From a virus, in IMG/VR virus record IMGVR_UViG_3300046007_002967, positions 1-24,660 of that record: DNA of 24,660 nt. One strand, given 5' to 3'. The position numbers and the translations under genes were made by a program. This document shows, piece after piece, positions 1,734-11,635 of the stretch (the stretch's first letter is position 1; every line of letters starts with the position of its first letter). The notes under the pieces were generated by a model. That model did not search any database and was not told the DNA's origin. It saw only the letters and a program-made list of their open reading frames with translations.

Positions 1734-1987
1734 TTCCCCCCGTAATACGCTTCTTTTATTTTATCATAATTCGCTACTGCAAACTCAAGATAGTGTAAAG
1801 CCTTCTGCAAGTCCTCTTTACCATTTTTCTTGTGATGCCGTTGCACATACTTTACTACATTACACAGCCAAGGGTCTAACTTCCAATCAAGGAAGACATC
1901 CCAAGGCTGAATCCCGCTTTTGTAGTGGTCGCCACCGATCTGCTTTGATGCAATATAGTCTGCTAATGTTTTATGCTGCTGAGACAT
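1730..1987 (-). CDS. DUF3310-family protein
   Basis: 85 aa. The diagnostic stretch is GGDHYKSGIQPWDVFLDW (residues 18-35), followed by LCNVVKYVQRHHKKNGKEDL and a KALHYLEFA helix. This is the HYK...IQP...D...L...NVIKYV.R...K....DL.KA..YL pattern of DUF3310. The family is common in phage early regions; I recall it being linked to T7 gp1.7, a nucleotide kinase, but the short form has no visible P-loop, so a kinase role cannot be claimed. ATG 1987 has AAAGGA about 9 bases upstream. The start lies inside the preceding exonuclease gene (17-base overlap) and the stop overlaps the next gene by 4 bases. Its position between an exonuclease and ribonucleotide reductase suggests nucleotide metabolism. 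Confidence 0.85.
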   Translation of the reverse strand: MSQQHKTLADYIASKQIGGDHYKSGIQPWDVFLDWKLDPWLCNVVKYVQRHHKKNGKEDLQKALHYLEFAVANYDKIKEAYYGGK

Positions 1988-2705
1988 TGGCGTGTTCCTT
2001 TATTGCTTTGGTGGATTTGGACCAGGAACCACAATCTGTACACTGGAATCTTTGGAAGGTTCCGGTGGTGGTGTAGGTAAATCCACGCTTTTGCAGTCTC
2101 CCGCTTCCACAGTTGGGACAACCGTGACCGTTGAAGAGGTTATGATTAGGGTGAGACTTAATCCAAGGTAGCAGACGATCATAGACTTTCTCCAGCAGCA
2201 TAACATCCTGCTTGTTGTACTTCTCCATCACTTTCCACGCAGCAGGGTCTTTGTTCATGCACTTGACCCATAACTGATAACCTTCGTGTGAAGTCTTCTG
2301 TCCCAAGCCAAGCCGCTGTGCAATGTGGTCTAGTTTATTGCTTGCAAAACGGAACTCTTTACGAACTACCTTTAGCAAGTCAATCTGCTTGTACGGCGAT
2401 GGCGGCGCTAGGTGATGCAACAGGAACTCTTTATTCAGCACAGGAATATCAAACCTAGTGCCGTTGTAGTGGCACACAGCATCAGCCTCAGAGATCAGAT
2501 CGTGTATCCGCTGAAGCATCTCCTTTGGCTGCTTAGTGTTGAACACAGAATCAAACATAACCTCTTTTTTGTCATACCACTTTGCTGCCCAACACAGGAC
2601 ATAGGATGACTCCAGCAAATGCTCAGGACTGATGTACTGGTCACGAAGGCCCCAAATGTGTGCAGTGTTGGGGCTTGTTTCGATGTCTAGCATTAGTAAT
2701 TTCAT
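1971..2705 (-). CDS. DnaQ-like (RNase H fold) 3'-5' exonuclease with C-terminal zinc ribbon
   Basis: 244 aa. Exo I motif LMLDIETSP (residues 4-12, D7/E9), Exo II in CHYNGTRFDIPVL (D near residue 86), and Exo III-like YNKQDVMLLEKVY near residues 164-176. This is the DEDD metal-ion core of proofreading-type exonucleases. A separate module at about 196-230 carries CPNCGSGRLQKRG ... FQCTDCGSW, a four-cysteine zinc ribbon that probably grips DNA or RNA. The DNA polymerase in this window already has its own proofreading domain, so this second enzyme may degrade host DNA, process ends, or act on RNA. ATG 2705 overlaps the upstream stop by 4 bases and has an AGGA-like site. Exonuclease fold is firm; substrate is inferred. 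Confidence 0.88.
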   Translation of the reverse strand: MKLLMLDIETSPNTAHIWGLRDQYISPEHLLESSYVLCWAAKWYDKKEVMFDSVFNTKQPKEMLQRIHDLISEADAVCHYNGTRFDIPVLNKEFLLHHLAPPSPYKQIDLLKVVRKEFRFASNKLDHIAQRLGLGQKTSHEGYQLWVKCMNKDPAAWKVMEKYNKQDVMLLEKVYDRLLPWIKSHPNHNLFNGHGCPNCGSGRLQKRGFTYTTTGTFQRFQCTDCGSWSKSTKAIKEHANVSAA

Positions 2706-3001
2706 TCGTTATCCTGATTCAGAGCATCGAAGTAATCTTGAACTTCTTCTGCTGTATAGCGTGGCTCATCGTAGAAACGCTGAAACAGACACTCATTGAT
2801 GTCGCCATCAATCTTAACTTTCTTACGCACACCTTCAAAGCCAATGTGCTCTAGGAAGCGGCAAAACTGCCACAGGATCGGATGCCAAGTTTGGTCACCA
2901 TCAAAATCATGCCGTGCCTCAATGACTGTCTCTGATGGAAAAGCACTGTCGCTAGCGTCATCAAACTCTTGGCCTTCATAAATAAATCTATAAGTTGTCA
3001 T
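2702..3001 (-). CDS. Hypothetical protein, 99 aa
   Basis: Begins MTTYRFIYEGQEF and ends in an acidic helix (YTAEEVQDYFDALNQDNE). Predicted mixed alpha/beta with net negative charge, no signal peptide, no transmembrane segment and no metal-binding motif. Start ATG 3001 has AAAGGTAAGCA in front, a good ribosome site. It overlaps the PDDEXK nuclease gene upstream by 14 bases and the DnaQ-type exonuclease downstream by 4, so it is co-translated with nucleases. I do not recognise the family. Sequence-wise it could be a small accessory or inhibitor protein, but nothing visible decides this. Confidence 0.78.
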   Translation of the reverse strand: MTTYRFIYEGQEFDDASDSAFPSETVIEARHDFDGDQTWHPILWQFCRFLEHIGFEGVRKKVKIDGDINECLFQRFYDEPRYTAEEVQDYFDALNQDNE

Positions 3002-3338
3002 TGCTTACCTTTCTAAGTAGTTCAAAGAAGTATTCACAGTCTACCACAACCAGGGGCTTATCTCTGTTTTGCTTGATGACGAGCACTGGTTCAAACCCTC
3101 TTGCATTGTCTTTTGCTTGCTGATAATGTCCATATACCGAGATGCTTGCTCTGGACTTGCATTCCACACTGATTGGTAACTTCCGTCTGGCTGCTGGACT
3201 AAGAAGCAAGTCTTCTCCCGACACGCCCATGCTAACTGAACGAACATCATCAGGCTCCAGTCCGAACTTTGCGATTATTAGGTCCCTTACGGCCTGCTGC
3301 AGTACTCGGCCTTTTGCCTTCGCTGAGGATGGTTTCAA
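2988..3338 (-). CDS. PDDEXK-type phage endonuclease (Holliday-junction-resolvase-like), TTG start
   Basis: 116 aa if translated from TTG 3338. Core motif: KAKGRVLQQAVRDLI helix, then DDVRSVSMGVSGEDLLLSP, RRKLPISVECK, giving the acidic D ... ExK catalytic pattern (D in GEDLLL, E and K in VECK). The YGHYQQAKDNA helix and PVLVIKQNRDKPLVVV strand complete a small nuclease fold. The longer open frame reaching 3536 is low-complexity basic sequence with no family character, while AGGAAG sits 6 bases before the TTG, so TTG 3338 is preferred. Family members probably cut branched or host DNA during phage replication. It overlaps the upstream 112-aa gene by 89 bases, out of frame. Nuclease class is confident, exact substrate not. 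Confidence 0.85.
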   Translation of the reverse strand: MKPSSAKAKGRVLQQAVRDLIIAKFGLEPDDVRSVSMGVSGEDLLLSPAARRKLPISVECKSRASISVYGHYQQAKDNARGFEPVLVIKQNRDKPLVVVDCEYFFELLRKVSNDNL

Positions 3339-3588
3339 TGTTGACTTCCTTTCTTGTTTTGATCCACGACTTCGGTATGTGCATCCTTGCGTTACTGGAG
3401 TCCATGCTGACTGTGTTCGCAACGCAGATCGCATCGTCTGCTTCTGACACAATCCAGCCAAGCGTGTAACACTTGTGTATCTCTGTTTTTGTCCCTTCCT
3501 GCCACCCTGCATCTGCGACTGCGTCAACCCATTCAATGTAAACTATCGGGGCTTTTTCCAAACCTGATTTGGTTTTCTTCGTATCCAT
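3250..3588 (-). CDS. Hypothetical protein, 112 aa, with out-of-frame tail over the endonuclease gene
   Basis: The core is APIVYIEWVDAVADAGW ... LGWIVSEADDAICVA ... ARMHIPKSWIKTRKEV. I recall short phage proteins of this shape (IEW.DA, GW.VSE.D, IPK.WI) beside replication genes; they normally stop just after the IPKxWI block. Here another 27 or so residues follow, from NIETILSEGKRP to the stop, basic and Gly/Arg-rich, read in a different frame over the nuclease gene. That tail looks accidental. The start ATG 3588 lies 46 bases inside the 5'-3' exonuclease gene. No catalytic motif is visible. A small beta-rich regulator or DNA-mimic is possible but unproven. Confidence 0.72.
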   Translation of the reverse strand: MDTKKTKSGLEKAPIVYIEWVDAVADAGWQEGTKTEIHKCYTLGWIVSEADDAICVANTVSMDSSNARMHIPKSWIKTRKEVNIETILSEGKRPSTAAGRKGPNNRKVRTGA

Positions 3589-4220
3589 AATAATTGTGCC
3601 TGCTCCGTTAAGTAGGTTTCATCGTTGTCGTATGCCTTCAGCACTGCATCGTACATCTCGTATTCTGTCTTACAGCCTTTTAGAATCTTCTCGGCCTTCT
3701 TTGGCCCAATGCCTTTTAGTCCAGGCACGTTGTCTACACGATCTCCAGTGAGCACTTGTGTGTAGAAACTGTACAGCGTGTCGTCTTCATCAACCCAAAA
3801 CTTTTCATTGCGCTTCATGTTGTAGTGCCATCCACGGATCATATTCAGATCCTTGTCTGTGGTGCAGATAACATAGTCTTCTGGGTCTAACTCGTAGGCA
3901 GCAATGCCGATGGCATCGTCAGCCTCCTGATACTGCTCTATCGAAAACTTCCAAGCACTATTTAGGTAGGTCCTAATTAAGTCTAGGTGCTTAGGTTTAT
4001 CTTGTGTTCTGTTGCCTTTGTAGGGCTTGGTCTTTGCTATTGGGATACGAAAGTTCTGATAACCTGTAAGCCAACCATCAGCATCGTCACAACCAGCATG
4101 AATATAGACAAGGTCTTCAAGATATTCAGAGCACTTGCTGATAGCGGTCTTATCGTCATAGTCCTCGCAACCATGAGCGATGATATGGGCGATAATGTCG
4201 CCATCAACAAGTGCGATCAC
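3543..4220 (-). CDS. 5'-3' exonuclease, FEN/T7 gp6-like
   Basis: 225 aa, starting at GTG 4220. It begins VIALVDGDIIAH, placing D6 and D8 of the metal site at the very N-terminus, so no later start is acceptable. EADDAIG (99-105), TTDKDL (120-125) and GDRVDNVPGLKGIGPKKA (159-176) give the remaining carboxylates and the helix-hairpin-helix DNA-binding loop. Members remove RNA primers or resect double-stranded DNA during T7-style replication and recombination. The upstream 52-aa gene ends three bases before the GTG; the ribosome site is weak, so re-initiation is likely. The C-terminus overlaps the next gene by 46 bases. Compared with T7 gp6 (about 300 aa) it is short but retains all motifs. Confidence 0.92.
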   Translation of the reverse strand: MIALVDGDIIAHIIAHGCEDYDDKTAISKCSEYLEDLVYIHAGCDDADGWLTGYQNFRIPIAKTKPYKGNRTQDKPKHLDLIRTYLNSAWKFSIEQYQEADDAIGIAAYELDPEDYVICTTDKDLNMIRGWHYNMKRNEKFWVDEDDTLYSFYTQVLTGDRVDNVPGLKGIGPKKAEKILKGCKTEYEMYDAVLKAYDNDETYLTEQAQLLWIRRKPNQVWKKPR

Positions 4221-4223
4221 TGA

Positions 4224-4382
4224 TTAAACTCGTGCGATAGCGTAACCGAGTTGTCCGTGAATACGGCTCAGTCCTTTAGCACGAAGATACTTACGAAGAG
4301 CATTTCGTGCTGCTTCGTAGTTTTTGAAACCACTTAGAGACTTCAGCGATAACTTCTTATTATTAAAACGGATGATATACAT
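4224..4382 (-). CDS. Small basic protein, 52 aa, unknown function
   Basis: Begins MYIIRFNNKKLSL, continues with a Lys/Arg-rich helix (YEAARNALRKYLRAKGLS) and ends GYAIARV. The pattern strand-loop-helix with many positive charges suggests a tiny nucleic-acid-binding or replisome-associated protein. AAAGGA lies about 7 bases before ATG 4382, a strong ribosome site, and the frame exactly fills the gap between the SSB gene and the 5'-3' exonuclease gene. I recall similar MYIIRF... mini-proteins in other phages but no function. Confidence 0.75.
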   Translation of the reverse strand: MYIIRFNNKKLSLKSLSGFKNYEAARNALRKYLRAKGLSRIHGQLGYAIARV

Positions 4383-4402
4383 AATTGTCCTTTCGGTTAT
4401 GT

Positions 4403-4813
4403 TTACAGCACTTCTTCGGCTTCTTCAGCGTCTGCTTCATAGGCCACCAAACTATCAATTACTAACTTAGTCATGGATGGAGAAACGCCTTTCTTGTTTT
4501 TCCAAGACCACTCGTAAGCACCAACCACGGCTGTTGCCGTAGATCCGTTACCAATGGCGACTGTACTAAGATCGTTTCCACCGGCATCGAACACCTTCAT
4601 CGGGACAGTGCTCTTGCAGGTGATATAAAAGCCTTTCTCTGGCTTGTCTTCACGCTTACGCACTTCCAGACCCAATGACTCTAAAGCCTTGACTGCGTTG
4701 TCTGACAGGTTACACAGATCCACCTGAAACTTGTTAGACATCTCGTTAGGCTTATTATGAAAGCACCACATAATCGTGGCTTTTACTTTTACTGGCTTTG
4801 CTACGTCATTCAT
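4403..4813 (-). CDS. Single-stranded DNA-binding protein, T7 gp2.5-like
   Basis: 136 aa from ATG 4813, which has AAGGAG 6 bases upstream; the apparent longer start at 4834 only adds the ribosome site in frame (TLKENQ) and is rejected. The protein has a beta-rich OB-type core (VKATIMWCFHNKPNEMSNKF, GLEVRKREDKPEKGFYITCK) and an acidic C-terminal tail, YEADAEEAEEVL, as in phage SSBs where the tail contacts the polymerase and helicase. It lies directly upstream of the 5'-3' exonuclease and downstream of DNA polymerase, as expected for a replisome partner. The gp2.5 family is highly divergent, so this rests on length, fold pattern, tail and context. Confidence 0.8.
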   Translation of the reverse strand: MNDVAKPVKVKATIMWCFHNKPNEMSNKFQVDLCNLSDNAVKALESLGLEVRKREDKPEKGFYITCKSTVPMKVFDAGGNDLSTVAIGNGSTATAVVGAYEWSWKNKKGVSPSMTKLVIDSLVAYEADAEEAEEVL

Positions 4814-4830
4814 TTGATTCTCCTTTAAGG

Positions 4831-5034
4831 TCAATGAATTAGTTGTTTAGACTCATCCGCATTGGCAGATTCTACCATTTTAGCGGCTGTTTCCAAAATG
4901 TCAAGCATATTGTCGAAGTCGGCGGCTAAGTCCTTTGAGTAAGCAATATGGACTGCGCCATCGATCACGGCAATAAATATAGCAGACTCAGGATCTCCCA
5001 AGTCTTCAAACTCTGTTAATGCGTCTGACACCAA
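4831..5034 (-). CDS. Hypothetical acidic protein, 67 aa
   Basis: Small, acidic, mostly helical after a short strand region (SAIFIAVIDGAVHIAYS). No recognised motif, no signal peptide, no metal ligands. The start is either TTG 5034 or GTG 5031; GGGGA lies 3-6 bases upstream and serves either. It overlaps the DNA polymerase stop by about 19 bases and precedes the SSB gene. The position between polymerase and SSB suggests a replication accessory role, but nothing in the sequence proves it. Confidence 0.7.
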   Translation of the reverse strand: MVSDALTEFEDLGDPESAIFIAVIDGAVHIAYSKDLAADFDNMLDILETAAKMVESANADESKQLIH

Positions 5035-6683
5035 TTGTCCCCTATTTTGTACTCCCCGTCAAGGGGACACCGAAGTCCTAATACTACACCAGACTTTTTA
5101 ATACTGTCAACTGCTAATTCCCCTACTCTTTGTGCGTGTTCTTCCTTGACTTCTAACTGGAACTCATCATGCACATTGACTACAAATTTAGCATCTAACT
5201 TGTACCGCCGAAGTTGCTCATCCAGCAACACAAGAGCCTTCTTCATCACTATCGCACCAGCACCCTGCAGTAGCGTGTTGAGTGCTGCGTGTGAGGAACG
5301 AATGAATAGTCTCCTACCGTCAAGACCTGGAAGCGATCCTTGTACCGATAACTTCTCAACCTTGTCACGAAGTCTTTTGAGACTTGGCGTGTTCCGAAGA
5401 AAAGTATCGATGAGTTTCTGACCATGCGCTGCCGAACCACCAACAATCTTCCCGATCTTGGCAGGCCCTGCGCCATAGAGTAAAGCGTAAATGAATGTCT
5501 TGGCTTGCGCCCTAGTTTCAAGACCTGCCGCAGTCTGGTTTTTTGTATGGATGTCACCTTCAACGATTTCTCTAGCATACTGCTCATCCTTCATATAGTG
5601 TGCCAGCATTCTTAACTCCAGCGATGCAGCGTCACAGCCAACCAGTTTATAGCCTTTCTCAACCGTGAAGAGGCTACGACACTCAACACCATACTCTGAG
5701 CCAACCGATGGCACCTGAGCCATATTAGGGCTGTGGTGTGTCATTCTGCCTGTGACTGCTCCGTTGGTGATGACCTTACCGTGAATCCTGTTGTCGTTAG
5801 ATACACTTTCAATCCAGGACTCAACCATAGCCACCCTCTTCTGAATGAGTAAGTATTCGGCAATGGCTCTTGCTTCTGGTATATCAACTCCCGCCAGTGT
5901 AGATTCATCGACAATCACCTGTCCTTTTTCTGTTTTCTTTGTTGGCTTCCAACCTTTCTCTTGGAGCCGCTTGGCGATTTGTTGCCTTGAGCCTGGGTTA
6001 AAGACTTCGACATCGTCCTTGAGTCTCTTTCCTGTTTTCTCACTTGTTCGCTCGGTAATGATTGGAGGAAAGATGCTCTGTAGGGATGCCTCAATTGATA
6101 CCATTTTATCTTTAAGTCCTGCCAGAAGCACCATAGCCGTAGGCAGATCGAATCTAAAACCGTTTCGCTCTTGCTTTGCGATGACGATTGCGACTTGGTG
6201 CTCAAGTTCGATGGAGTCTTGCGAGAATCCATATTGCTCTTTCTCCTTTAATAAAGCATTGTAGACTTTTTCCAACACCTCGACATCACGGACACAGTAG
6301 TCCTGCATTTCTTGTGACCAGCCACTGTCAAAGTCTTTGAAATCAATCTTTTCTTTTCCTAGACTTGTTCCCCACGCTGCGAGGCTGTGTCCGTTTTCTC
6401 GGCTTGGATTCATCAGCCTTGACATGACTAGGGTATCGATGCACATCGATGGAACTATCTTCGTATTCCATAGCCTGTTCAATATCGGGAAGTCGAAGAA
6501 GATTCCGTTGTGCGCCACTAGTGAAGGTTTGTCCTCTAATGTTTTTAATAAAGTTTCTGCCTTGCGATGACATTCAACTACTCCGCTTCTTTGATCCTTT
6601 GTTACGCACAGGTGGATCTGGTTGTGATCCGTTGTCGTTTCTATGTCCAAGAACACTACCCGCCTCTGACCATCGGTTTTCAT
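5016..6683 (-). CDS. polA: Family A DNA polymerase with 3'-5' proofreading domain (T7-like)
   Basis: 555 aa. Proofreading domain: DIETT (D13, E15), HNGIFFDFPIL (D64), YCVRD (D133). Polymerase domain: motif A GCDAASLELRML (D351, E356), motif B/O-helix RAQAKTFIYALLYG (R391, K395, Y399), motif C NVHDEFQLEV (H505, D506, E507). Y399 corresponds to E. coli Pol I F762 and T7 Y526; a tyrosine there is typical of fast virulent phages. It is about 150 residues shorter than T7 gp5, and the thumb region (about 225-330) shows no room for the thioredoxin-binding insertion, so processivity must come from elsewhere. The first 110 bases are overlapped out of frame by the upstream small gene. Confidence 0.97.
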   Translation of the reverse strand: MKTDGQRRVVFLDIETTTDHNQIHLCVTKDQRSGVVECHRKAETLLKTLEDKPSLVAHNGIFFDFPILNRLWNTKIVPSMCIDTLVMSRLMNPSRENGHSLAAWGTSLGKEKIDFKDFDSGWSQEMQDYCVRDVEVLEKVYNALLKEKEQYGFSQDSIELEHQVAIVIAKQERNGFRFDLPTAMVLLAGLKDKMVSIEASLQSIFPPIITERTSEKTGKRLKDDVEVFNPGSRQQIAKRLQEKGWKPTKKTEKGQVIVDESTLAGVDIPEARAIAEYLLIQKRVAMVESWIESVSNDNRIHGKVITNGAVTGRMTHHSPNMAQVPSVGSEYGVECRSLFTVEKGYKLVGCDAASLELRMLAHYMKDEQYAREIVEGDIHTKNQTAAGLETRAQAKTFIYALLYGAGPAKIGKIVGGSAAHGQKLIDTFLRNTPSLKRLRDKVEKLSVQGSLPGLDGRRLFIRSSHAALNTLLQGAGAIVMKKALVLLDEQLRRYKLDAKFVVNVHDEFQLEVKEEHAQRVGELAVDSIKKSGVVLGLRCPLDGEYKIGDNWCQTH

Positions 6684-10525: not shown

Positions 10526-10667
10526 TTTCTTTTTCCTTTTCTTGTTTAATGATTTCACAGACAAATTCGACAATGTCGTCATCGTTACCATACCAATTGC
10601 CGAAATCGCTATACCCTAACTTGCTGTCGGCAATGTCAAGGATTTCTTTCACTGTTAACTGTGACAT
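10509..10667 (-). CDS. Small acidic protein, 52 aa
   Basis: Begins MSQLTVKEILDIADSKLGYS, then DFGNWYGNDDDIVEFVCEII, ending with a charged helix KQEKEKENVLAA. ATG 10667 has AAGGAG 8 bases upstream, located in the last codons of the methyltransferase gene (13-base overlap), so it is translationally coupled to it. Too short for a family call. Acidic surface and proximity to a methyltransferase raise the possibility of an anti-restriction or DNA-mimic protein, but that is only inference. Confidence 0.72.
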   Translation of the reverse strand: MSQLTVKEILDIADSKLGYSDFGNWYGNDDDIVEFVCEIIKQEKEKENVLAA

Positions 10668-11635
10668 TTTTCATTCTCCTTTTGAAGTATAGCATATCCA
10701 ATTAACTCAGGTATTTGAGGCACTAGTGAGTTTCCTAACTGTTTAAGTCTGTCCACCCTATTGGGTATCCCATCAGCCACTCTACCCAATTCGGGTTCAA
10801 CTTCCCAGAAGTCGGACTTTGTAACCCCTCTGACAACACAACCGCTGCAGGCAGACACGGACTCTTTCGATTCTGTGCCGCTGGCTCGTATCCCGAATCC
10901 TTCCAATCTCTTGCCGCCGGAGTCGGCCAAAGATTCCTTCCCACTACTGTTTCCAAATTCGGATTTCTTTTTGGATTCCACACTGATTCCGGCGTTATTG
11001 TTGCCGCCATCGCCGAACAAGCCCTTGGAGTCGGCCAAAGTCTGCTTGGCTGATTCGCCATTGAATCGTTCACCGCTGCGCCTAGATTCCATCCATGCTT
11101 CCCGTTCAAATGACTTGGAGCCACTCCCTGCCCTCCCGTCATCGCTGTTGGGGTAGGCCACAATCCAGATTCTGTCCCTCTGGTGAGGTGCGCCAACGGC
11201 TGAAGCGGGTATACAATGCCATTCCGCATCATACCCGATCGAATTGAGCGACCGGAGCACTTCGTCCAATCCTCTAGATCGAAGCACGGCAACATTTTCT
11301 GCGATGACATACTTCGGATTCGTTTCTTCAATGAGCCTGTGGAATTGCCACCATAGGCCGCTTCTTTCGCCTGCGAGTCCTGCTCCTTTTCCCGCGACTG
11401 ACAAATCCTGGCATGGGAATCCTCCGGTAATAATTTCAACTGCTCCAAGGTCTTTTCCTTTCAAAGTAGATACATCATCAAAAATCGGCACATTGGGCCA
11501 ATGCTTTTTTAGCACTAAGTGGGTCTTTTTGTCATTATCGCAAAATGCGACAGTCTCAAATCCTCCCGTGCGTTCAAGGCCAAGAGAAAACCCACCGATG
11601 CCACTAAATAGGTCAAGATGTTTGAGTTTCTTCAT
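10655..11635 (-). CDS. dcm: DNA cytosine-C5 methyltransferase
   Basis: 326 aa. Transfers a methyl group from S-adenosylmethionine to cytosine C5. Motif I LFSGIGGFSLGLE (9-21), motif IV GGFPCQDLS with catalytic C75, motif VI AENV (112-115), motif VIII APHQRDRIWIV (149-159), variable target-recognition region 160-275, motif IX/X VADGIPNRVDRLKQLGNSL (286-304). No endonuclease is adjacent, so it is a solitary phage enzyme, likely protecting phage DNA from host restriction. The target region holds three similar segments (VAYPNSDDG, LADSKGLFG, LADSGGKRLEG). The whole second half is also open in the +1 frame (see nested gene). Start ATG 11635 overlaps the upstream gene by 23 bases. Confidence 0.95.
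   Translation of the reverse strand: MKKLKHLDLFSGIGGFSLGLERTGGFETVAFCDNDKKTHLVLKKHWPNVPIFDDVSTLKGKDLGAVEIITGGFPCQDLSVAGKGAGLAGERSGLWWQFHRLIEETNPKYVIAENVAVLRSRGLDEVLRSLNSIGYDAEWHCIPASAVGAPHQRDRIWIVAYPNSDDGRAGSGSKSFEREAWMESRRSGERFNGESAKQTLADSKGLFGDGGNNNAGISVESKKKSEFGNSSGKESLADSGGKRLEGFGIRASGTESKESVSACSGCVVRGVTKSDFWEVEPELGRVADGIPNRVDRLKQLGNSLVPQIPELIGYAILQKENEKCHS
10735..11448 (-). CDS. Nested +1-frame ORF inside the cytosine methyltransferase gene, LWPTP-repeat protein, up to 237 aa
   Basis: Lies wholly inside the methyltransferase gene, its codons beginning at the second base of methyltransferase codons. TTG 11448 has AAAGGA with 7-base spacing; later ATGs at 11310 and 11295 lack good sites. 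It shows an ordered architecture: RSGMMRNGIVYPLQPLAHLT (70-89), three LWPTPxA modules at 96, 137 and 173 (LWPTPTAMTGG, LWPTPRACSAM, LWPTPAARDWKDSG), and LNPNWVEWLMGYPIGWTDL (217-235). I recognise this series from stand-alone phage and prophage proteins of unknown role, often near cytosine methyltransferases. The LWPTP modules are exactly the +1 reading of the YPNSDD / LADSxG segments, and GWTDL is the +1 reading of RVDRL. Coding is likely but unproven. Confidence 0.6.
   Translation of the reverse strand: MEQLKLLPEDSHARICQSREKEQDSQAKEAAYGGNSTGSLKKRIRSMSSQKMLPCFDLEDWTKCSGRSIRSGMMRNGIVYPLQPLAHLTRGTESGLWPTPTAMTGGQGVAPSHLNGKHGWNLGAAVNDSMANQPSRLWPTPRACSAMAATITPESVWNPKRNPNLETVVGRNLWPTPAARDWKDSGYEPAAQNRKSPCLPAAVVLSEGLQSPTSGKLNPNWVEWLMGYPIGWTDLNS

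Follow-up and report, generated by a model that had tools for sequence, protein, structure and literature searches.

A phage C5-cytosine methyltransferase probably encoded as two polypeptides in overlapping reading frames

The small-subunit gene of the C5-cytosine methyltransferase (C5-MTase) M.EcoHK31I lies inside the gene of the large subunit, in another reading frame. According to the published description of this two-polypeptide enzyme (recognition sequence YGGCCR), the large chain holds motifs I-VIII and X as well as the predicted recognition domain and the smaller chain holds motif IX (PMC3404938), and both polypeptides are needed for methylation, as the title of Lee et al. 1995 states (cited in PMC3404938). 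Motifs IX and X are both placed on the small chain of M.AquI in the same description (PMC3404938). Our literature searches for an overlapping methylase pair yielded nothing beyond M.EcoHK31I.

Here we describe a phage locus that, with a probability of roughly 0.86, encodes one C5-cytosine methyltransferase as two polypeptides from overlapping frames, as judged from its sequence and that of its relatives. The frame-0 chain would supply the catalytic domain (motifs I-VIII), a disordered tether and motif X, while the nested chain would supply motif IX; the target-recognition region with its LWPTP modules most likely lies on it as well. The nested chain is presumed to be translated independently and to assemble with the frame-0 chain into an active enzyme, which could modify and protect the phage DNA.

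The locus and its two reading frames

The window, i.e., the whole stretch of DNA analysed, is the 24,660-base virus record IMGVR_UViG_3300046007_002967. Its gene set is podovirus-like and includes DNA primase/helicase, DNA polymerase, exonuclease, terminase, portal and major head protein genes. On the minus strand at 1971-6683, the DNA polymerase and the exonuclease part are separate ORFs by their PHROGs matches (5016-6683; 1971-2705). The methyltransferase gene dcm contains a second ORF entirely within it, in the +1 frame relative to dcm, and the features discussed below are as follows.

10655..11635, minus strand: dcm, the frame-0 (alpha-like) polypeptide of 326 aa, with motifs I-VIII, a linker and motif X
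11141..11635, minus strand: frame-0 catalytic domain, residues 1-165, motifs I-VIII, GFPCQ with Cys75 (AlphaFold, Foldseek)
11456..11461, minus strand: AAAGGA, Shine-Dalgarno-like, 7 bases ahead of the TTG (read from the sequence)
10735..11448, minus strand: nested +1-frame (beta-like) ORF of 237 aa with a TTG start, carrying the probable target-recognition region and motif IX
11212..11301, minus strand: doubly constrained stretch, nested residues 50-79 (QKMLPCFDLEDWTKCSGRSIRSGMMRNGIV) over motifs VI-VIII (frame-0 third-position changes)
11149..11163, minus strand: LWPTP module 1, nested residues 96-100
11026..11040, minus strand: LWPTP module 2, nested residues 137-141
10918..10932, minus strand: LWPTP module 3, nested residues 173-177
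10766..11140, minus strand: frame-0 linker, residues 166-290 (low pLDDT; identity near the +2 level)
10744..10803, minus strand: putative motif IX in the nested frame, KLNPNWVEWLMGYPIGWTDL, nested residues 216-235 (likeness to the in-frame segment of locus L173)
10658..10765, minus strand: motif X in frame 0, PNRVDRLKQLGNSLVPQIPELIGYAIL..., dcm residues 291-326 (pLDDT; M.HhaI alignment)

A preliminary description of this DNA had reported the nested ORF of 237 codons with its TTG start and AAAGGA at 7-base spacing, and all of these were found as stated. The motifs quoted there, SGMMRNGIVYPL, three LWPTP modules and LNPNWVEWLMGYPIGWTDL, are likewise present at the places given. Read in +1, YPNSDD or LADS segments of the methyltransferase indeed give LWPTP, RVDRL gives GWTDL and GYDAEWH gives SGMMRNG.

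Openness and selection in the two frames

The +1 opening in the dcm gene of the window spans 241 codons versus a mean of 99 after synonymous shuffling, and none of 5000 shuffles reached the observed length, while the +2 opening of 48 codons is as expected under the same shuffling (49). Across 204 related loci, only 9 stops occur in the +1 frame against 640 expected after synonymous shuffling, i.e., about 70-fold fewer, with 2188 stops against 2096 expected in the +2 control. These relatives were found via the nested protein and are thus chosen for it; a second sample of 80 loci was collected by the N-terminal catalytic domain only. In this sample, 76 loci reach motif X in frame 0, and their genes were scored from 25 codons past motif IV to about 12 codons short of X. 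The +1 frame is stop-free in 72 of the 76 genes and the +2 frame in none; over 11,635 codons there are 13 stops in +1 versus 658 in +2, and L167 and L173, two genes with motif IX shifted into frame 0, account for 10 of the 13. From motif VIII to IX, frame 0 of the 204 loci is free of stops, although shuffling the synonymous codons of the nested frame predicts 708; this zero describes the set, since the loci were picked for a frame 0 open to X. Frame 0 is closed in L152, L169 and L222, so closure is possible when motif X sits elsewhere.

Position 1 of the frame-0 codon coincides with the wobble base of nested codons. Per-site changes at frame-0 codon positions 1/2/3, counted in 24 close pairs, are.117/.072/.254 from the start to motif IV,.088/.048/.185 from motif IV to VIII,.300/.130/.152 from motif VIII to IX,.174/.071/.054 in motif IX and.123/.079/.308 from motif X to the end. 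The concentration of changes on frame-0 position 1 indicates that selection shifts to the nested frame after motif VIII and returns to frame 0 at motif X. Amino-acid identity between relatives from motif VIII to IX is highest in the nested frame (0.801), and frame 0 (0.665) lies close to the unused +2 frame (0.631). A wider set of 41 independent pairs gives change totals of 1408/700/768 between motifs VIII and X versus 474/297/1024 in a control stretch. The window's own pair, L005 and L002 (identical to the window across the nested ORF), differs by 25/6/6 changes at the three frame-0 positions, with identities of 0.93 in the nested frame, 0.70 in frame 0 and 0.66 in +2. Both frames are constrained over motifs VI-VIII, where frame-0 third-position changes amount to 0.10-0.13 per site versus 0.29-0.32 near motif IV, and the first ~30 nested residues show no extra constraint. 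As judged from these comparisons, selection from motif VIII to IX acts on the nested frame, and frame 0 there evolves almost freely apart from remaining open.

The dual coding with selection in the +1 frame that had been proposed for this locus is strongly supported by the stop counts and the substitution pattern. Frequent +1 stops and a lack of selection in that frame, which the preliminary description had named as speaking against it, were looked for in the relatives and were absent. That codon usage and conserved frame-0 residues alone keep the +1 frame open, with an untranslated nested ORF, is scarcely credible: frame 0 does bias +1 towards openness, since shuffles still leave fairly long openings in the window (mean 99 codons), but the roughly 70-fold deficit of stops and the placement of substitutions on the nested wobble position speak against it. 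An origin by chance or as a sequencing or codon-bias artefact was also considered and is ruled out by the shuffles and the substitution pattern in pairs.

The two products and the motifs that change frame

The dcm product matches Pfam DNA_methylase at 1.5e-47, over profile positions 2-169 of 324 only. In a phmmer comparison with M.HhaI, it is covered over 12-178 and in a weak motif X stretch (aligned to M.HhaI 293-319), with nothing at motif IX; motifs I-VIII and X lie on this large chain, and the complete series I-X of a monomeric C5-MTase (PF00145) does not. The AlphaFold model of frame 0 (91 sequences; rows from annotated phage records were left out of the AlphaFold alignments) has a catalytic domain at residues 1-165 with pLDDT mostly >90, and its best Foldseek matches are M.HhaI structures (E 4e-16, ~166 columns). 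The middle, residues ~170-292, is disordered in the model, the linker (166-290) having mostly pLDDT <60 and almost no secondary structure, and the C-terminal helices of motif X reach pLDDT of about 87-97. From both the substitutions and the model, the frame-0 middle appears to behave as an unselected linker.

The nested protein matches PHROG 1008 at 8.4e-29 (residues 2-235, profile positions 36-281 of 329), and searches of the nested family against Pfam and PDB sequences found nothing relevant. Modelled alone (AlphaFold, 140 sequences), it gives a poor structure with a mean pLDDT of 58.8, in which only the motif IX helix 219-226 is fairly sure, and such a model would speak neither for nor against the two-chain view. 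More can be learned from relatives. Frame 0 of L167, L173 and L252 encodes LNPDWVEWLMG[YF]P beside motif X, and the Pfam match extends there to position 322-323 of 324. L173 is collinear there with M.HhaI 270-317 (KLHPRECARVMGYPDSY...FGNSVV), and the nested frame of the window ends with the same segment as the in-frame motif IX of L173, KLNPNWVEWLMGYPIGWTDL. By position and likeness, the nested C-terminal segment is taken to be motif IX; its match to M.HhaI is weak alone (i-Evalue about 12), and it is the collinear alignment, the extent of the Pfam match and the motifs' change of frame that carry the assignment. Motif IX would thus be off the large chain and on the small one, a placement that the frame moves support despite the weak stand-alone match. 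The nested frame is, on sequence grounds, both selected and the carrier of a motif IX segment missing from frame 0. The LWPTP region is most likely the target-recognition region, a role suggested by its position between motifs VIII and IX, its variable length and module number, and its conservation.

In the usual layout, motif IX is nested and motif X is in frame 0, with an IX-to-X spacing of 56 nt in 204 of 205 loci. In L093, L167, L173, L252 and the actinobacterial L265 and L266, frame 0 encodes both motifs and the LPTP part remains in +1. The nested frame holds the two motifs in mycobacteriophage Darrell (L083) and in L222, where many stops interrupt frame 0 past motif VIII. Frame 0 also ends past motif VIII in L152 and L169, with motif X in a separate downstream ORF. 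This exchange of motifs IX and X between frames suggests that both chains serve one enzyme and that frame 0 between motifs VIII and X only serves to reach X. A search for a single-frame LPTP methylase in 198 genomes of the phylum of an Actinoplanes locus gave 3 matches, two of which have the LPTP part in +1 and IX-X in frame 0. HNH-type endonuclease-like sequences were noticed by eye, from translations, between motifs IX and X of two loci (L069:2275-3553, L149:2332-3943).

The preliminary description had viewed the nested product as a functionally separate LWPTP family overprinted on an intact methylase. The conserved nested frame and its match to PHROG 1008 would fit this, but we consider it very improbable. 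Frame 0 is without motif IX, which the nested product carries instead, and is unselected in its middle; moreover, motifs IX and X switch frame between relatives. The supposed direction of overprinting also runs the opposite way, as it is the nested frame that is conserved between motifs VIII and IX and the methylase reading that resembles an unselected linker. No stand-alone LWPTP protein was found among the loci inspected, each of which adjoins or sits inside a methylase. The mycobacteriophage protein with the best PHROG 1008 match is one half of a split methylase.

Relatives of the locus occur as at least 254 stretches in IMG/VR contigs and at least 352 in bacterial genomes of many phyla. 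Among the 80 bacterial loci kept, a simple motif scan scored 77 motif IX segments, 62 of them in the standard layout. A search of E. coli matched 4 distant loci. At least five dual-coding copies with the same match length and identity (L199, L200, L201, L203 and L204) are present in the Roseovarius genome OX638333.1.

Probable translation of the nested chain and comparison with known methylases

Just ahead of motif IV, a Shine-Dalgarno sequence with a start codon in the nested frame is present in 94 of 203 loci versus 47 expected from synonymous shuffles (sd 4.7). A second cluster lies at codons 14-20 past motif IV over the frame-0 GKGAG segment (84 loci versus 59.5 expected), and there is no such excess in the +2 frame. 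This enrichment favours independent initiation of the nested chain. The window is without a start codon at the second cluster position (its frame-0 GKGAG segment), and the TTG is a candidate only for the true start of its nested ORF. The annotations of Paenibacillus phage Tadhana and Mycobacterium phage Darrell call each of the two ORFs a methyltransferase and give them separate starts. In L022, L066, L072 and L085, the nested frame is open from an ATG ~4 bases past the dcm ATG (ATGAATGAGTTGG), so that the frames overlap over almost the whole gene.

A programmed frameshift into +1 around motifs IV-VIII could instead yield a fusion of motifs I-VIII with the LWPTP region and motif IX, the nested chain never being started by itself. 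The overlap of the frames over motifs IV-VIII, where nested constraint begins, and the unsettled position of the true nested start agree with such a mechanism. It is nevertheless unlikely in view of the start signals before motif IV, which exceed the shuffles by several sd with no +2 counterpart, and the separate starts annotated in Tadhana and Darrell.

It is likely that a widespread class of genes with a single-chain dcm annotation, in phages and bacteria alike, consists of entangled two-chain methylases, in which the recognition region and motif IX would be nested, the annotated target-recognition domain (TRD) would be a tether bringing in motif X, and motifs IX and X would switch frames over evolution. 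Many dcm annotations in phages and bacteria would then cover half of the enzyme, and predictions of target specificity that use the annotated reading would rely on the wrong frame. The locus would also belong among the broader same-strand overlapping gene pairs of prokaryotes, one in which the frame under selection, as seen from substitutions, changes along the gene. Natural variants show which parts belong together. With this locus, how two-chain C5 methylases divide their labour becomes open to test.

The single-chain enzymes M.HhaI and Dcm share with this locus the catalytic domain fold, motif X and a motif IX-like segment, but hold the TRD and motif IX on the same chain as the catalytic motifs. 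The nested protein matches the PHROG 1008 family 'DNA methyltransferase' (mycobacteriophage gp82-like), as does Darrell gp82 at 6e-72; unlike the nested protein of the window, however, gp82 overlaps its partner only partly and also carries motif X. As in M.AquI, the catalytic and C-terminal motifs are split over two chains, but motif X stays in frame 0 in the window, whereas the Darrell pair is closer to the M.AquI division, and it and L222 have both motifs IX and X on the small chain. As in M.EcoHK31I by its published description, motifs I-VIII and X are on the large chain and motif IX is on the small one. The predicted recognition domain is described there on the large chain; here, the frame-0 reading of the VIII-IX region is barely more conserved than the +2 control and modelled as disordered, and selection in that region acts on the nested frame. 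Given the shared division of motifs and this nested selection, we class the present family as a variant of the M.EcoHK31I type.
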